Virus record (IMG/VR): IMGVR_UViG_3300025122_000042
Coordinates: 1-41,717 of that record
Length of the DNA: 41,717 bases
Strand: one strand, 5' to 3'
Source: a virus
The translations under genes and the position numbers were made by a program. Positions 18,442-35,839 of the stretch are shown in pieces. Under the pieces are notes generated by a model. The model was not told the origin of the DNA and ran no database searches. It was given only the letters and a program-made list of their open reading frames with translations. How positions within the stretch are numbered: the stretch's first letter is position 1; each line of letters begins with the position of its first letter.

Positions 18442-19078
18442 GGATGTCTCCGAATTGACGAATGTTACTCATTGCTCTGTCTACAATTTGACGAACAGCT
18501 TCTCTCGTTGAACCTACTTGGTCAGCAATTTGCTGATACGTCAAGCCCTCCATGTGGTACTGCTTAATATACTTATCTTGTTTGTTCGTTAGACCTGAAC
18601 GATTAAGAATCTTATCTAAAACCTTCTTACTCTCATTACTCTCTGCTTGTTCCTGCGGCCCCAAATCTTTTGAAGGAATCTTATGTGAAAGACTATTTTC
18701 TTTTTCGCTGTCGTGAGTCAGGGTTCTATCTAGGGAGTCAACTCTTGGAGCCTTAGCCTGTCTACCAACGTAGGCTTGAATAGCCCAGATGGCACACTGA
18801 TTACGATAGCAATACTTAGTTCTTACTTTGCCAGTACTGCTCTTATACTCAGAACTCCATCTCCAGTCAGCCATCATAATAGCCGTTGCCACATTAGAAA
18901 TAGCGTCATCGCTCTTCATCATTTGTTCTACTAGACCTGGACGAAACCTAGCAGCAAAAGTTCTTATTGTTTTCTTTGCTATGGTTAGGTATTCATCAAA
19001 AGATATCTCGAAGTTCTCTTCTTTAGCTTCGGGATATTCAATCAGTTGGTCTCCAATTGCTACTATATCAATACTCAT
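18434..19078 (-). CDS. Phage RNA polymerase sigma factor (sigma-70 family)
   Basis: A 214-residue protein. The C-terminal region 4 is clear: LTNKQDKYIKQYHMEGLTYQQIADQVGSTREAVRQIVDRAMSN spans a helix-turn-helix (residues about 162-205). A region 2-like segment with WRWSSEYKSSTGKVRTKYCY and QCAIWAIQAYVG lies at about 70-105. This is short, like T4 gp55 or other phage sigma factors. It is the natural candidate to read the class 2 GGTGTATAATA promoters in this window, which is an inference. It sits between the NAD-type fusion gene and a nuclease. Confidence 0.85.
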   Translation of the reverse strand: MSIDIVAIGDQLIEYPEAKEENFEISFDEYLTIAKKTIRTFAARFRPGLVEQMMKSDDAISNVATAIMMADWRWSSEYKSSTGKVRTKYCYRNQCAIWAIQAYVGRQAKAPRVDSLDRTLTHDSEKENSLSHKIPSKDLGPQEQAESNESKKVLDKILNRSGLTNKQDKYIKQYHMEGLTYQQIADQVGSTREAVRQIVDRAMSNIRQFGDIHE

Positions 19079-19090
19079 CTGTTGTACCTC

Positions 19091-20236
19091 TTAATCTTTA
19101 GCGTTGCGAATCTTAGTGGACGAAAGTCCTGTATCTTTATACTCTTGTTGCGAAACAAAGTCTGCTATAAGACCGAGGTAGGCAGGGTATAATCTTTTAT
19201 CCCCTTTCCTACTGAAGACCATTAGCCTTGCGTCGTAATTAGTAAGTGTCTCCCTGGTTCTAACAGGGTTATACTTCTCCTCATTCATCCTGTTGAACGT
19301 GTCCATTCCCACCAGGAAGGTTGTACTGTTGACAGCCTCAGCTTTTTGAATAAAGAGAGGAGCATTAGAAATGACTACCCCAGCGATACTATCCCTAGTA
19401 ATAACCTTGCTCATAATATCTAAGACCCTATCCCTCAAAGTAATATAATCAAGAGCTGGCTTGTCTGTGTTGCCTATAGACAACTCTAACCATACCTGCT
19501 TACCTGTTTTCTTATAGGCAGCGTCAGCCATCCTTAGGTGTTGAGCGTGAATAGGGTTGAACGACCCTGGAAGGATAAGGGGACGGCTCTTCTCTAAATC
19601 TCGCTGGCTCCAAGTGCCCTCAGACTTATGAATAACGATTACCTTCCGATTGTCGCGAATTATTTCTTTTATTTCAGGGCTAGTCTCACACGTATCTCCT
19701 ACTATAACCTCTGGCTTTTTCATGCAGGTAAAAAGACCGTTCTTTTTATCAGCAATATCCACCCCACAGAACCATTGGTTTAGAGCATCTAAGATAAAGT
19801 TCTCACAGAGATACTCCTCTTGCACGCGAGACCTATCGTGTTCAAACCTTAGATGGACATACGAAGACTTATCGTTTGAGTGATAGGCCGCGTAAATCTC
19901 ATGGACTCTACCCTCTCGCTCACCCTCTGTCACCAGCTTAGCCGTTGTTGATACTCCATGTGCCTCCTTAGGGTCAACACCCAGCTTAATACATCGTTGG
20001 TGGGCGGCTACTGCCAGCTTAAGGGCGGTCTCCTTACTAACATGACTGTCTGGCTTACCTATTAGGTCTTGAGTACTTTCCGTAGAGTAGTTGATAATAC
20101 CCTCTACTAGGAACTCAGACCCACCACCATAATTTAGTAGGTGTCCAAACACTCCAGTCCCACCACCAGTGACGGTTAGTACGACTTTCTTTTTAGAGCC
20201 AACTATCTGCTTAATCTTATCAAGGTATTTCATCAC
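19091..20236 (-). CDS. Fusion of CinA/PncC-like domain and NMN/nucleotidyl-transferase-like domain
   Basis: The N-terminal 150 residues follow CinA C-terminal (nicotinamide nucleotide amidase) order: a glycine-rich start VTGGGTGVFG, FLVEGIINYS, then STTAKLVTEGE. The usual nucleophile region ESCTGG is replaced by GGGTG, so the amidase may be inactive. The C-terminal part has the nucleotidyltransferase motif GSFNPIHAQH (about 224-233) and LSSTKIR (about 372-378), as in NadD/NadM. It would make or recycle NAD-type dinucleotides. It overlaps the ligase gene by 4 bp (ATGA). Confidence 0.75.
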   Translation of the reverse strand: MMKYLDKIKQIVGSKKKVVLTVTGGGTGVFGHLLNYGGGSEFLVEGIINYSTESTQDLIGKPDSHVSKETALKLAVAAHQRCIKLGVDPKEAHGVSTTAKLVTEGEREGRVHEIYAAYHSNDKSSYVHLRFEHDRSRVQEEYLCENFILDALNQWFCGVDIADKKNGLFTCMKKPEVIVGDTCETSPEIKEIIRDNRKVIVIHKSEGTWSQRDLEKSRPLILPGSFNPIHAQHLRMADAAYKKTGKQVWLELSIGNTDKPALDYITLRDRVLDIMSKVITRDSIAGVVISNAPLFIQKAEAVNSTTFLVGMDTFNRMNEEKYNPVRTRETLTNYDARLMVFSRKGDKRLYPAYLGLIADFVSQQEYKDTGLSSTKIRNAKD

Positions 20237-29479: not shown

Positions 29480-30061
29480 TTAACCATAGTTAGTCTCCCT
29501 AGTATGATGGTCAACAGTAATAACATCCAACTCCCTGACCTGAGCAACCACATCCTCAAGCAACAGAGGCTTGAAGTCGTGACAGTCAACACCAACGTCT
29601 AGCTGACGCCCTACTGCTTTGAAGTTACCATGAGAGTGACCATGTAGGTTGATAGACCCACGACCATTCTCATTCCACGCAGCAATAGGATAGTGAAACA
29701 TGCAAACCTTCTTCTTGTTGACACGCTTCTCAACATAGTGGCCTGTTGAAGCAAAGAGCTTCTGATATTCAGGAAACTTATGTTCGATAGCCTCATCATG
29801 GTTGCCATACAGGAGGTGAATTGTACCACAGTTGATACGCTCTCTCAGAGCAGGGATTTCCTTCTTATTTCCGAAGGCGAAGTCACCCAGGTGATAGAGT
29901 ACATCATTCTTACCAACGACAGCGTTGATGTTGTCGATGATAGTATCATTCATTTCTTGCAGGGAAGAAAAGTGTCTGTACCCACCGTCCCATGAGGAGA
30001 TGGCGGGTCCACAGATGTTAGTGTGGTTAAAGTGAGTGTCTGATGTTATGTAAGTCTTCAT
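29480..30061 (-). CDS. Calcineurin-like metallophosphoesterase
   Basis: A 193-residue two-metal phosphoesterase. The motifs are in order: SDTHFNH (D8, H10), GDFAFG (about 59-64), GNHD (about 86-89), MFHYP and HGHSHG. Such enzymes remove phosphate groups. Next to a polynucleotide kinase and in an operon with an RNA ligase, it could clear 2',3'-phosphate ends, as the phosphatase domain of bacterial Pnkp does. The ATG overlaps the kinase stop by 4 bp. Confidence 0.88.
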   Translation of the reverse strand: MKTYITSDTHFNHTNICGPAISSWDGGYRHFSSLQEMNDTIIDNINAVVGKNDVLYHLGDFAFGNKKEIPALRERINCGTIHLLYGNHDEAIEHKFPEYQKLFASTGHYVEKRVNKKKVCMFHYPIAAWNENGRGSINLHGHSHGNFKAVGRQLDVGVDCHDFKPLLLEDVVAQVRELDVITVDHHTRETNYG

Positions 30062-30543
30062 TTATACTTTTCCTTTTGCTTCTCTAGCTTCACAAGTATG
30101 TCAGCCAGCGGTTCGTAGCGAGCCATCATACTCTCATAGGTGTCACGAGGAACCCCATGACTACCCTTCTCAATTAACTTGTCAATATTCCAGGCCCAAT
30201 CAGTATCGGGCTCAACAATCTCTACCTCATAGCCAGCTTCAAGAGCATTAACTATGTAGGACTTCATCTCTTTCCACTGTAGGTTAGTGTTGTCTAGGAT
30301 AACATCTCGACCAGCATTGATTAGCTGACGGACCTTCCATTGTGACCAGCGGTGAGCTGAGCCTAACTTCATCGGGTCAAAATAATAGGTTCCACCTACT
30401 GTAAAGTACTCGTCTGAGCTTACTATTACAGGTCTTTTCTTTTGGTTGGTTGTATAATCCTTTAGTTGTGGACCTTGAAGGGCTTTAGCCCTAGTGCTCT
30501 TACCAGAGCCAGGAAGCCCCCTCATAATACATATCTTAGCCAT
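30058..30543 (-). CDS. Polynucleotide kinase-like P-loop kinase
   Basis: A 161-residue kinase. Walker A is RGLPGSGKST (about 8-17). VSSDEYF and ILDNTNLQWKEM follow, as in T4 Pnk and N4BP2-type kinases, and HGVPRDTYESMMARYEPL lies near the end. It probably puts phosphate on 5'-OH ends of RNA or DNA. There is no phosphatase domain on this chain; the metallophosphoesterase follows with ATGA overlap. Starts with a GGAGAAA site. Confidence 0.85.
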   Translation of the reverse strand: MAKICIMRGLPGSGKSTRAKALQGPQLKDYTTNQKKRPVIVSSDEYFTVGGTYYFDPMKLGSAHRWSQWKVRQLINAGRDVILDNTNLQWKEMKSYIVNALEAGYEVEIVEPDTDWAWNIDKLIEKGSHGVPRDTYESMMARYEPLADILVKLEKQKEKYK

Positions 30544-30552
30544 TGATTTCTC

Positions 30553-31269
30553 CTATCTCTTCGCTGCATCAAGTAATTTTTGTACTTCATCGTCAACAGT
30601 ATCACCCTCTTGACTATACTTAGCCTCAAGGTCAACATCAGTCTTACCATAGACTTCTTCAAAAGCCTCTGCTCTTGCTGTCTCTGCATTTACATGCTCT
30701 TGTAGTGAACCTAGTCCACCCAAGTCTGTCTCACCTAATCCAGACCCCAACTTAGCCATGTCTTGACGCATCTTAGAGCCTACCAACTGAACTTCAAGAA
30801 TCTCCCTGTTAATTTCAGCATCTTCGATTTGGTCCTTACGAACTTCCAACTGCTGCCTAACAGTAGAGATAATATGTTCGTTCGCCTCAATCTGACGAGC
30901 AAATGTCTTAGCTCTTGCCTCGGCACGCTGCTTTTCTTTTACGAACGTCGTTACTGCCTCAGTATTTCCATCACTAGCTGCCTTAACAGACAGGTCTGAG
31001 TATCTCTTAATCTCCCTCTTTGATGCTTCAACTCTTTGCATCAACCCCTTATTGGAGACGATAGCATCTGAAACCTCTTCTTGTGCTTTAATAACGGCGT
31101 CTTTAGCGTCATCAATCTGATGCCCGTGGTCTTTTACTGGGTCAGATAACTTATCGTTGATGGCATTCTTAACATCTCTCATCCTATATTTAAACTTAGG
31201 AAGAAAACTATACAAGACAGCACCAACAAGCAATAAAACTGCAATACTCCAAAAAACAATAATCATCAT
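30553..31269 (-). CDS. PspA/Vipp1-like protein with N-terminal membrane segment
   Basis: A 238-residue protein. Residues 2-24 are hydrophobic (IIVFWSIAVLLLVGAVLYSF). The rest is a long coiled coil typical of PspA/IM30: AKDAVIKAQEEVSDAIVSNKG, KREIKRYSDLSVKAASDGN, then EHIISTVRQQLEVRKDQIEDAE with a flexible tail. PspA proteins form membrane-binding polymers that repair envelope stress. It lies inside the RNA-repair operon and overlaps the gene upstream by 4 bp. The membrane anchor is unusual for the family. Confidence 0.65.
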   Translation of the reverse strand: MMIIVFWSIAVLLLVGAVLYSFLPKFKYRMRDVKNAINDKLSDPVKDHGHQIDDAKDAVIKAQEEVSDAIVSNKGLMQRVEASKREIKRYSDLSVKAASDGNTEAVTTFVKEKQRAEARAKTFARQIEANEHIISTVRQQLEVRKDQIEDAEINREILEVQLVGSKMRQDMAKLGSGLGETDLGGLGSLQEHVNAETARAEAFEEVYGKTDVDLEAKYSQEGDTVDDEVQKLLDAAKR

Positions 31270-31862
31270 AATACTTCATACTCCTCTTCAAACATGTTAA
31301 TACCCTGGTACAACTCAATGTATCCACCACTCTCACTGTCCTCACCACCAATTTCAATCGCCATGACTTCTGGGTAGTCAGTATCAGAGAGGGCAGACCA
31401 TTCTGCTACTCCGCAGAATCGACCCTTCTTATCTTCACCATAAAGGACACCGCCCTTAATCTTAAATTCTACAGCCTCTTCATTATCATAGTCCATACTT
31501 AAGAGTCTTAGGAAGTCACGCTCTGTTAAAGTCTGCTCTTCCTCAAAGTCAAAAAGATATTCTAACCAACCTGAATCATCAAGGTCTTGTCTGTCTCCAC
31601 ACTCAAAACTTTCTGGGGCAGAACATATCCTTACATCGCATAGGTCTTCAACCTCTTTAATTATTAGGGTCTTCTCAGACTTTGTAAAATGAACGCGAGT
31701 CCACCTAACAAGACCATGAGACTGATTAATAGTAAGGACGTTCTCGACCCTTAAATCTTGGCCGAGAACAGCCTTACCTGTTTCAGCTAGAACATCCGCA
31801 ATAGTTTCTCCATCCTTGAAGGTGACAATATCACCCTTCTTTAAGTTGCGAATGTCTTTCAT
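31266..31862 (-). CDS. Hypothetical acidic protein
   Basis: A 198-residue protein, acidic in its second half, with a first domain that looks like a small beta-barrel (KKGDIVTFKDGETI...). No family recognised. It starts inside the RNA ligase gene (32-bp overlap, site AGGAG) and stops in the ATGA start of the PspA-like gene. Confidence 0.65.
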   Translation of the reverse strand: MKDIRNLKKGDIVTFKDGETIADVLAETGKAVLGQDLRVENVLTINQSHGLVRWTRVHFTKSEKTLIIKEVEDLCDVRICSAPESFECGDRQDLDDSGWLEYLFDFEEEQTLTERDFLRLLSMDYDNEEAVEFKIKGGVLYGEDKKGRFCGVAEWSALSDTDYPEVMAIEIGGEDSESGGYIELYQGINMFEEEYEVL

Positions 31863-32943
31863 CCTTCATCTCCTGTTTAATGATTTGCCATATGGATAGT
31901 CTAATGTCCTTCTTGTCTGCAAGAGAGAAAACTAATCCTTTGTATTTATAGTTAATGATACGAGCAGCAAGTTCTTTACGAGGTAAGTGGTTCAAGGATT
32001 CAAAAAGAGAGAAAGATTCTTCCCAAATTTCATGGAACCTATCTAGTAGTCTAGATGCTACCTCTTCACCCCACTGATAGAACTCATCAGGCACATCCTT
32101 TAGGACATCTTTAATATCCACACCATCGCGTAGCCATTCCCAGACTGTGTTTTCACTTAGTCCAGTAACGATACGATGGAGCCTCTTGTACTCTTCGTAC
32201 TTCCACTTGACACGTAGGCCATTGCCAAAGACTAGGACGAAACCTTCTTGTCCATTGTAGTCTTCTTCAGTTAGGTCTTCGAGAGTCTGGATATGGAAGA
32301 ACTCCTTAGCTCGTTCAAACTTTCTTGAGAACATGCGGTACATGTTCCAGTCATCCTTACCTGTTCTCTTGTTAACCACAGCTAGTAAGACTAACTTTTC
32401 TTCACCCTTGTAGTCTACAACGATTTGGTTTTCAGGGTAGATGATTTCCACCATGAGTGTAACCTCATCTAGTAAGCTCTCACCATGAACAGTCTTCCAC
32501 TTGTTGTGGTCAGCCAGACCCATCTCCTCTAGCATTTCAGTAGCACGAACAGCCATTTCTGACTCGAACGAACCCCTAGTAGCAACGCACACCTTGTCAC
32601 CCAATGGGTACAAGACACCCAAGGAACCATCTAGCTTGTCAAAGCATCGAAAGTTACCCTTGAACATGTTCTTAAACTTCATGCCATACAGGTGGTGTAC
32701 CTTGTTTCTCATGCTAGTAAGCTGGTCTAGTGTGAAAAATTTTTCCAGAGGTCGTGAAACAACTGACCACTTTTCATCAACAATTAGCCCACGGCATGTC
32801 ATTGTAGTTCCTGGCTCCCAGTAGAACTCAAACTGAGTCTGCTTAGAGTAGTTTAGAATCCACAAGTCAGCAGTAGGGTGCTTACGCTTTGTAACCCAGC
32901 CGTCTTCAATTGCCTGTTCTATTTTTGTAATGTCTAGTTTCAT
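31831..32943 (-). CDS. T4 Rnl1-like RNA ligase
   Basis: A 370-residue ATP-dependent RNA ligase. The nucleotidyltransferase motif FDKLDGSLG has catalytic Lys 103. TCRGLIVDE precedes it, LMVEIIYPEN gives motif IIIa, EGFVLVFGNG motif IV, and RVKWKYEEYK motif V. The helical C-terminal part resembles the tRNA-binding part of T4 Rnl1. It would rejoin tRNA anticodon breaks together with kinase and phosphatase in the same operon. Its start overlaps the ParB-like gene by 38 bp. Confidence 0.88.
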   Translation of the reverse strand: MKLDITKIEQAIEDGWVTKRKHPTADLWILNYSKQTQFEFYWEPGTTMTCRGLIVDEKWSVVSRPLEKFFTLDQLTSMRNKVHHLYGMKFKNMFKGNFRCFDKLDGSLGVLYPLGDKVCVATRGSFESEMAVRATEMLEEMGLADHNKWKTVHGESLLDEVTLMVEIIYPENQIVVDYKGEEKLVLLAVVNKRTGKDDWNMYRMFSRKFERAKEFFHIQTLEDLTEEDYNGQEGFVLVFGNGLRVKWKYEEYKRLHRIVTGLSENTVWEWLRDGVDIKDVLKDVPDEFYQWGEEVASRLLDRFHEIWEESFSLFESLNHLPRKELAARIINYKYKGLVFSLADKKDIRLSIWQIIKQEMKDERHSQLKEG

Positions 32944-34351: not shown

Positions 34352-34380
34352 TTTATACTCCTTTATTTCATTAATGTAAG

Positions 34381-34466
34381 CGGAGAAGGAGGGAATTGAA
34401 CCCACAGGCCCTTACGACCACGGTTTAGCAAACCGCTGCACCTCACCAATACTGTGCCGCTTCTCC
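34381..34466 (-). tRNA. tRNA-Ser(GCU)
   Basis: Acceptor GGAGAAG/CTTCTCC, anticodon stem GCGGT/ACCGT with loop TTGCTAA, long variable arm, T loop TTCAATT. Confidence 0.9.
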
Positions 34467-34470
34467 ATAG

Positions 34471-34540
34471 TCCCGACAGTAGGGTTTGAACCTACAATCA
34501 CTCTCCTTACGGGAGCCGCGTTGCATTAGCGCACATCGGG
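34471..34540 (-). tRNA. tRNA, probably Tyr(GUA), with C33 and short variable arm
   Basis: Acceptor CCCGATG/TGTCGGG, T arm GTAGG/CCTAC with TTCAAAC. The anticodon loop reads CCGTAAG between CTC and GAG, giving GUA with C at position 33. A shifted pairing would give UAA (Leu). No long variable arm, unlike usual bacterial tRNA-Tyr. Isotype uncertain. Confidence 0.6.
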
Positions 34541-34543
34541 AAG

Positions 34544-34629
34544 GGTAAATGACGAGACTCGAACTCGCTAGTGCTTACGCACACAAGGGTCACAACCTTG
34601 CTCCGCTCTCCAACTCGGACGCATCTACC
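34544..34629 (-). tRNA. tRNA-His(GUG) with long variable arm
   Basis: An 8-bp acceptor including G-1 opposite C73 (the tRNA-His identity pair): G + GTAGATG with CATTTAC + C. Anticodon stem CAAGG/CCTTG with loop TTGTGAC. The variable arm is 15 nt with a GTGC-GTAA-GCAC hairpin. T arm GCGAG/CTCGT. Confidence 0.85.
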
Positions 34630-34675: not shown

Positions 34676-35374
34676 TTACTTCTCCAGTGTAGGCTTAAGC
34701 CTAAGTCCTAGTCCGCTCTTTCCAAAAATGGAAATTCGTAGCTTGACATATCGCTCCAGAAGATTCCACGTTGCAAGCGAGTCAAACATAAACGCCTTGT
34801 AGAGTTCCTCTCGCACACGTTCAACAGAAATCTTTTTAATGCCCTCAGAGCAACACTGTTGAAACATGCACAATGAAATGTCTGAATCTAGTTGCATATC
34901 CTTAGTAACCGAAAACCTAATAGCCCGTAGGACACGCAGGTAATCTTCATTAAACCTATCAAAGGCAGAACCAACACAACGAATGATTCCTTTCTCCATG
35001 TCCTTACGACCTCCGAAGGGGTCAATGTAGCTACCGTCCTCAGCCTTAGCAATCGCGTTCATTGTAAAGTCACGACGCCCAAGGTCGTCCTCAAGAGAAC
35101 CCATCTCTACGCTCTCAGGGTGACGCCCATCAGAATAAACACCGTCCTTCCTGCAACAAACGAAGTCACAAGCTCCCATACCAGGAACCTTAGCCCGAAT
35201 TGTTAGGAACTCAGGATTCTCAAGGAAGATTTCTCCACCCCGCTTCTGAATCTCTAGCTTCATTGCCGCGTAGGATGGTGCAACTACAGAGTAGTCGATG
35301 TCCTTAGACTTTAGCCCAAGGATTTCGTCTCGCACGCAACCACCTACTTGGTAGAATTTAATTTCTTTATTCAT
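34676..35374 (-). CDS. cca: tRNA nucleotidyltransferase / poly(A) polymerase family (CCA-adding type)
   Basis: A 232-residue protein. VGGCVRDEILGLKSKDIDYSVV has the class II nucleotidyltransferase GGxVRD (about 11-16) and DxD (about 25-27) metal site. RRDFTMNAIA and DPFGGRKDMEKGIIRCVG follow, then EDYLRVLRAIRF of the neck. It is shorter than bacterial enzymes (about 400 residues), lacking much of the C-terminal body. None of the 26 tRNA genes here encodes CCA, so this enzyme fits their maturation. The ATG lies 1 bp after the previous TGA with an AAAGG site. Confidence 0.85.
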   Translation of the reverse strand: MNKEIKFYQVGGCVRDEILGLKSKDIDYSVVAPSYAAMKLEIQKRGGEIFLENPEFLTIRAKVPGMGACDFVCCRKDGVYSDGRHPESVEMGSLEDDLGRRDFTMNAIAKAEDGSYIDPFGGRKDMEKGIIRCVGSAFDRFNEDYLRVLRAIRFSVTKDMQLDSDISLCMFQQCCSEGIKKISVERVREELYKAFMFDSLATWNLLERYVKLRISIFGKSGLGLRLKPTLEK

Positions 35375-35375
35375 C

Positions 35376-35648
35376 TCAATCACCTTTATCGTCTACCCTA
35401 TAAGTTGGAACAAGAATGGTATCAAACCCTCTATTAGAGGGATAGCTGCAACTGCCAAAATACTTAGTATCATCCCATGCCTTAGAATTACCAACCAAGG
35501 TAACTTTCTCACCCTCGTCACAGTCAGGACACAAGGTAAGAGCCATGACACCCAAAGGCATCTCAGGCCAAATCTCTCTTGACCAAACCTGTTTACAACC
35601 TGGGCACTCTGTCTTACAAAGGAGCTTCGTTGGTTCTTGTTCATCCAT
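35376..35648 (-). CDS. Zinc-ribbon hypothetical protein
   Basis: A 90-residue protein with CKTECPGC (residues about 10-17) and LCPDC about 25 residues later, one zinc ribbon, then a strand-rich C-terminus. The true start is ATG 35648 with an AGGA site; the longer frame reads through tRNA-Leu(UAG) and gives the MAELADARG-like translation well known from misannotated tRNAs. It ends at the CCA-type gene start. Confidence 0.65.
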   Translation of the reverse strand: MDEQEPTKLLCKTECPGCKQVWSREIWPEMPLGVMALTLCPDCDEGEKVTLVGNSKAWDDTKYFGSCSYPSNRGFDTILVPTYRVDDKGD

Positions 35649-35750: not shown

Positions 35751-35765
35751 ATATTTATTCTTCAG

Positions 35766-35839
35766 TAGGGACGGTGGGAATCGAACCCACACTTGACAGT
35801 GCTTAAAACTGTTGTCTCTTCCATTTGGACTACGCCCCC
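35766..35839 (-). tRNA. tRNA with anticodon UAA (Leu codon) and short variable arm
   Basis: Acceptor GGGGGCG/CGTCCCT, D stem GTC/GAC, anticodon stem ACAGT/ACTGT with loop TTTAAGC, variable region of 5 nt, T arm GTGGG/CCCAC with TTCGATT. Usual tRNA-Leu has a long arm. Its first ten bases are the end of a small gene. Confidence 0.8.

Follow-up and report, generated by a model that had tools for sequence, protein, structure and literature searches.

A natural class II tRNA-His(GUG) gene in a tailed phage fragment and long-armed tRNA-His genes in other phages

Long variable (V) arms have traditionally been assigned to the tRNAs for Ser, Leu, Tyr and Sec, and the long arm serves both annotation programs and SerRS as an identity signal. 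A short V loop is usual in tRNA-His but is no identity element for HisRS, whose main recognition elements are the G-1:C73 pair and the anticodon; it is aminoacylation that defines identity. Unusual tRNA-His molecules with an 8/4 structure, from bacteria and phages, are said to have been described by Mukai et al. in Nucleic Acids Research in 2017. Long V arms have been combined with histidine identity by engineering in the work on allo-tRNAs discussed in PMC7590224, where E. coli HisRS charged engineered long-armed tRNAs carrying G-1:C73 and histidine was inserted, the first G-1:C73 construct remaining uncharged until its V arm had been altered. Since that construct required a change in the V arm, the arm is not wholly neutral. 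The open-licence papers searched gave no account of a natural class II tRNA-His and nothing directly on long-armed tRNA-His in phages. Here, a complete class II tRNA-His(GUG) gene located at 34544-34629 on the minus strand of a virus record was confirmed, and comparable genes were sought in viral and genome contigs.

The tRNA-His gene and its neighbourhood

The window, i.e. the whole stretch of DNA that was analysed, is a virus record of 41.7 kb and represents part of a tailed phage genome; among its genes are those for a head maturation protease, PhoH, ribonucleotide reductase, thymidylate synthase and DNA ligase. ARAGORN detected 22 tRNA genes in it, all on the minus strand, and among them called a tRNA-His(gtg) with a class II V arm at 34543-34628. 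In the sequence, G-1 is the G at 34629 and C73 the C at 34544, so that the span from G-1 to C73 given in a preliminary description of this DNA was exact, as was its assignment of the GUG anticodon, with which ARAGORN and the sequence agree. The encoded G-1 stands opposite C73 in a 7/5 acceptor branch with the acceptor stem GUAGAUG/CAUUUAC, and the remaining body comprises C8-G9, a D stem of 4 bp, the anticodon stem CAAGG/CCUUG and a T stem of 5 bp. The 7-nt anticodon loop UUGUGAC contains U33 and the anticodon at 34591-34593. The V region at 34569-34583 consists of U44, a 4-bp stem GUGC/GCAC closed by a GUAA loop, and a final UA; the 15-nt arm with its own hairpin that had been proposed was thus recovered, both by ARAGORN and with the same layout in the related contigs L009 and L010. 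At 15 nt with its own stem, this arm is of class II (about 10 nt or more plus a stem) and is not the short class I variable loop of tRNA-His. The CCA end is absent from the DNA, where the next bases are CTT.

The GUG anticodon and C73 are not those of a class II tRNA-Ser, tRNA-Leu or tRNA-Tyr, and an 8/4 structure was rejected because C8 and U65 cannot pair. Position 8, normally U, is C here, and the tertiary pair between positions 8 and 14 may be weaker for it. The Rfam model RF00005 scored the gene at 31.7 bits (cut-off 29, E 4e-5); this score was obtained from the local stretch at an E-value threshold, the default-filter scan of the window having missed the gene. A short-arm fold, on which the preliminary description would have been given up, was proposed by none of the tools used, and the covariance model alignment places the V-arm bases as inserts. 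The minimum-energy fold predicted by RNAfold (shuffle z -1.88) is about 2.3 kcal/mol below the cloverleaf and differs from it, as is frequent for unmodified tRNA sequences; both folds nevertheless have the V hairpin, the anticodon hairpin and the outer part of the acceptor stem in common.

The gene lies 46 bp downstream of a gene for a CCA-adding tRNA nucleotidyltransferase (34676-35383, minus strand; Pfam PolyA_pol 4e-22), whose phage homologues are annotated as tRNA nucleotidyltransferase. On its other side, a tRNA-like gene at 34471-34540 (minus strand; Rfam 29.4 bits) separates it from the next member of the array, a class II tRNA-Ser(GCU) at 34380-34466 (minus strand; ARAGORN) that is identical in L009. 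The tRNA-like gene is unlisted and was called by ARAGORN at a lowered threshold only; it has C1:G72 and A73 and an anticodon that reads UAA, AAG or GUA depending on the register, and it is replaced in L009 by a 4-nt spacer. It is probably degenerate. Further along the minus strand, a gene of the T4-type RNA ligase 1 family (31831-32943; Pfam RNA_lig_T4_1 1.4e-17) may have a role in tRNA repair, and a P-loop kinase of the AAA_33 group (30058-30543; Pfam AAA_33 5.8e-16) is possibly, from its inferred function, an RNA end-healing kinase. Together with a metallophosphoesterase gene, both lie within 3.5 kb (29480-32943), and the trio is a possible tRNA repair cassette.

Relatives were sought via the CCA-adding enzyme gene. 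In L009 and L010, the same tRNA-His follows the same enzyme gene, and G-1:C73 is kept in L009. The tRNA-His genes of the window and of L009, its nearest relative, are identical at 83 of 87 bases (95%), next to an enzyme gene with 83% DNA identity, and all four differences, from A28-U42 to G28-C42 and from G30-C40 to A30-U40, form two compensatory pairs of the anticodon stem. This conservation in L009 and L010, with compensatory changes only, excludes a chance origin. The L009 contig (119 kb) encodes 35 tRNAs for all 20 amino acids, with the class II gene as its sole tRNA-His. The less related phage L011 has no tRNA-His at this locus; its main array contains one of class I instead. Phage L012 has a class II tRNA-His that differs in sequence from that of the window. 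A similarity search with the tRNA and its flanks revealed no relative of the locus among named phages.

Long-armed tRNA-His and other isotypes in tRNA-rich phages

In order to find further genes, a first DNA pattern composed of a GUG loop, a long V region, a T loop and C73-CCA was used, which matched 53 viral stretches; a second pattern without CCA matched 38. According to ARAGORN, about half of the former (26 genes from the 53 matches) and most of the latter contain a class II tRNA-His. Altogether, 42 distinct class II tRNA-His(GUG) genes were collected in viral contigs from the pattern scans and the relatives, with off-register ARAGORN parses in L107, L162 and L170. The comparison with phage tRNA-His genes that the preliminary description had called for turned up dozens of unrelated phages with comparable long-armed genes. 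Such genes also occur in two isolated phages, Brevibacillus phage Jenst (KT151955) and Arthrobacter phage Talia1610 (PQ559666), where, with G-1:C73 and GUG, they are annotated simply as tRNA-His; that of Jenst is identical to L130. Set against the 26 class II genes from 53 matches of the corresponding His pattern, control patterns gave one class II Asp gene from 54 matches in a complete scan and, among the matches listed, at least one class II Ala gene.

Most of the 42 genes were found with a pattern that required C73, and only the -1 base, which the search left free, tests histidine identity independently. This base is G in 35 of the 42. In the same loci, G stands there in 2 of 163 class II Leu, Ser and Tyr tRNAs and, among other class I tRNAs, in 20 of 806. 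The two halves of the V arm co-vary: the longest stem averages 4.37 bp and falls to 3.24 bp when halves are swapped among class II tRNA-His genes of equal V length (0 of 2000 permutations). The A8-U65 pair of the 8/4 structure is possible in four of the seven genes with U-1 and in two of the 35 with G-1, the extra 8-65 pair being available in L096, L105, L112, L161, L114 and L129. Class I and class II tRNA-His occur together in the same phage in L144, L157, L158 and L165.

A pattern scan of genome contigs gave at least 118 matches, few of them real among the matches listed (L181, L200, L225, L250, L274 and L281); L200 resembles a phage. In the Nocardioides contigs L181 and L225, the class II tRNA-His(GUG) has C73 but no G-1 and adjoins a tRNA-Arg(acg), and the gene of L225 follows a short tRNA array, with an apparent integrase gene at a distance of about 1.2 kb.

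The association of arm class and isotype was tallied in loci taken only for their CCA-adding enzyme and in the contigs of four relatives, i.e. with small numbers and one program. Ser tRNAs were always of class II, Leu tRNAs were of class II in 16 cases and of class I in 13, and class II forms made up 3 of 6 His, 3 of 8 Asn and 2 of 6 Cys tRNAs and were also seen for Ile, Glu and Thr. Class II cases outside Ser, Leu, Tyr and His numbered 59 distinct genes, in tRNA-rich phages. Well-formed long-armed tRNAs for Thr, Lys, Met, Asn, Cys and Glu were observed in L416 (312-5144), L165, L157/L160, L164 and L096 (1442, 1999), and the L009/L090 contig (26199-26394) has calls for a tRNA-Tyr with 27 nt and a tRNA-Pro(TGG) with 25 nt in the V region, the tRNA-Pro having a 9-bp V stem. 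Class I tRNA-Leu genes with a short loop (UAA, UAG, CAA) were noted in the window at 35765-35839, in L094 at 18871-19169 and in L090 at 8060.

Since dozens of unrelated phages carry long-armed tRNA-His, the tRNA shape rule as it is taught fails in phages. The link between identity and arm class would be broken on the long-armed side for His, Asn, Glu, Thr, Lys, Met, Ile and Cys and on the short-armed side for Leu. That phages break it both ways, most readily for His, and keep the result in order to hide their tRNAs from shape-reading defences is a generalization we regard as doubtful; the ease of conversion of His would lie in an identity residing almost wholly in G-1:C73 and the anticodon.

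Function and origin of the long-armed tRNA-His

The window gene is predicted, with a probability of roughly 0.85, to be a functional tRNA-His that has a class II body and is charged by HisRS. Its fold, identity elements and conservation, its being the sole tRNA-His in a relative and its recurrence across phages support this, and from them we infer expression, charging, decoding and a benefit to the phage. A transcript shared with the neighbouring tRNAs would be trimmed by RNase P so as to leave G-1, and CCA would be added by the nucleotidyltransferase of the phage itself or of the host. Host HisRS would then attach histidine by way of G-1:C73 and the GUG anticodon, and the charged tRNA would decode CAC and CAU as part of a near-complete tRNA set by which the phage would lean less on host tRNAs. 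In the window, CAC/CAU encode apparently catalytic or zinc-binding histidines (PCH of thymidylate synthase, HAE of a deaminase, and HNH), which argues that the histidine codons are not reassigned.

This bears on the notion that SerRS or LeuRS reads the long arm and places Ser or Leu at His codons. Although bacterial SerRS uses class II arms for recognition, such mischarging is very improbable in view of those apparently conserved catalytic histidines, of G-1:C73, which is kept in 35 of the 42 genes and is lacking in Ser and Leu tRNAs, and of the complete tRNA set of L009 with no other tRNA-His. Even less credence is due to a decayed or chance tRNA-like sequence without function: the modest Rfam score, C8 and the minimum-energy fold would fit it, but the compensatory substitutions and the 95% identity beside a gene of 83% identity speak against it.

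As to the length of the arm, HisRS needs no short V loop, so that a long arm may be gained or inherited without a change of identity. Neutral drift permitted by HisRS, in which dispensable phage tRNAs acquired their arms by Leu/Ser recombination or by hairpin insertion, is the simplest account, and we give it an even chance. The bodies of the class II tRNA-His genes are diverse and their origins independent, class I and hairpin-inserted tRNA-His stand side by side in an array of Massilia rubra, and the converse, class I tRNA-Leu, is also common in these phages; against drift alone, V stems are kept by compensatory change across the set, which implies that the arm, once gained, stays folded. 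Selection of the arm as a shield of tRNA-His and other phage tRNAs against host defence nucleases that recognize tRNAs by their variable region or overall shape is a more tentative and rather unlikely explanation, since we know of no nuclease that cuts tRNA-His V loops and nothing in this analysis shows nuclease attack on host tRNA-His. It gains from the recurrence of class II tRNAs outside Ser, Leu and Tyr in tRNA-rich phages, from the coexistence of both tRNA-His classes in several phages, from Talia1610, in which an RNA ligase gene immediately precedes the class II tRNA-His, and from the T4 repair-type RNA ligase and possible kinase of the window phage. According to PMC13096335 and PMC11555353, retron-Eco7 and Septu cut the V loop of tRNA-Tyr, and the tRNA-Tyr of T5, with a distinct V loop, resists. 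Such published cleavage, together with the RNA ligase and the possible kinase, makes nuclease evasion plausible; however, a long arm is not in itself protective against these cutters, because they attack a class II tRNA, and published phage escapes are mostly changes of the anticodon loop (PMC10264068). Drift and protection are both compatible with a working tRNA-His, and the share of probability left over from them is reserved for other causes.

With regard to the source of the long-armed bodies, the preliminary description was borne out in placing His identity elements on a class II fold, whereas its suggestion of a Ser/Tyr-like donor found little backing. The best global alignments of the window tRNA-His were weak and mixed (Phe, Ser, Asn), with no donor standing out, and the adjacent tRNA-Ser(GCT), in spite of sharing C8-G9 and the GUAA V loop, scored no better. 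In the wider set, about half of the bodies are nearest to Leu tRNAs (e.g. L109, L119, L135, L143 and L150), and Leu-like rather than Ser- or Tyr-like is the commonest type. The Massilia rubra array (contig L281, 1052-3776) contains, besides one tRNA-His of class I, two near-identical tRNA-His copies whose V loop has received a 15-nt hairpin, which looks like the gain of a V arm caught in the act; the array also has a tRNA-Asn with a V region of 20 nt. From the Leu-like bodies and this array, there appear to be two or more routes to class II tRNA-His: either a class II tRNA changes its identity, or a tRNA-His of class I receives an insertion.

Comparison with known tRNAs

The dozens of long-armed phage tRNA-His genes, some in culturable phages, suggest that natural tRNAs can have HisRS identity irrespective of their class. 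With these molecules at hand, one could examine charging specificity, the design of orthogonal tRNAs and whether the shape of phage tRNAs counts against tRNA-cutting defences. With the canonical class I tRNA-His of bacteria such as Escherichia coli, the window gene shares G-1:C73, GUG and the 7/5 acceptor branch, and it differs in having C8 and a 15-nt V arm with its own stem in place of a 5-nt V loop. The tRNA-His of Jenst and Talia1610 likewise have a class II arm, G-1:C73 and GUG, but on Leu-like bodies. The synthetic allo-tRNA-His of PMC7590224 likewise unites a long V arm with G-1:C73 and is charged by E. coli HisRS, but it is engineered, with a 9/3 branch and an amber anticodon, whereas the window gene is natural and has GUG. 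The nuclease-escaping phage tRNAs of PMC11555353 and PMC10264068 resemble it in their altered loops and tRNA-rich regions; in the available parts of both sources, they retain the V-arm class of their isotype and include no His case. Unusual phage tRNA-His were, reportedly, already known in the 8/4 form, to which the present gene is akin in being an unusual phage tRNA-His and through the several class II genes that can form an 8-65 pair. The window gene itself is 7/5, and what appears to be new here, judged from sequence, is a natural class II tRNA-His of the 7/5 form.
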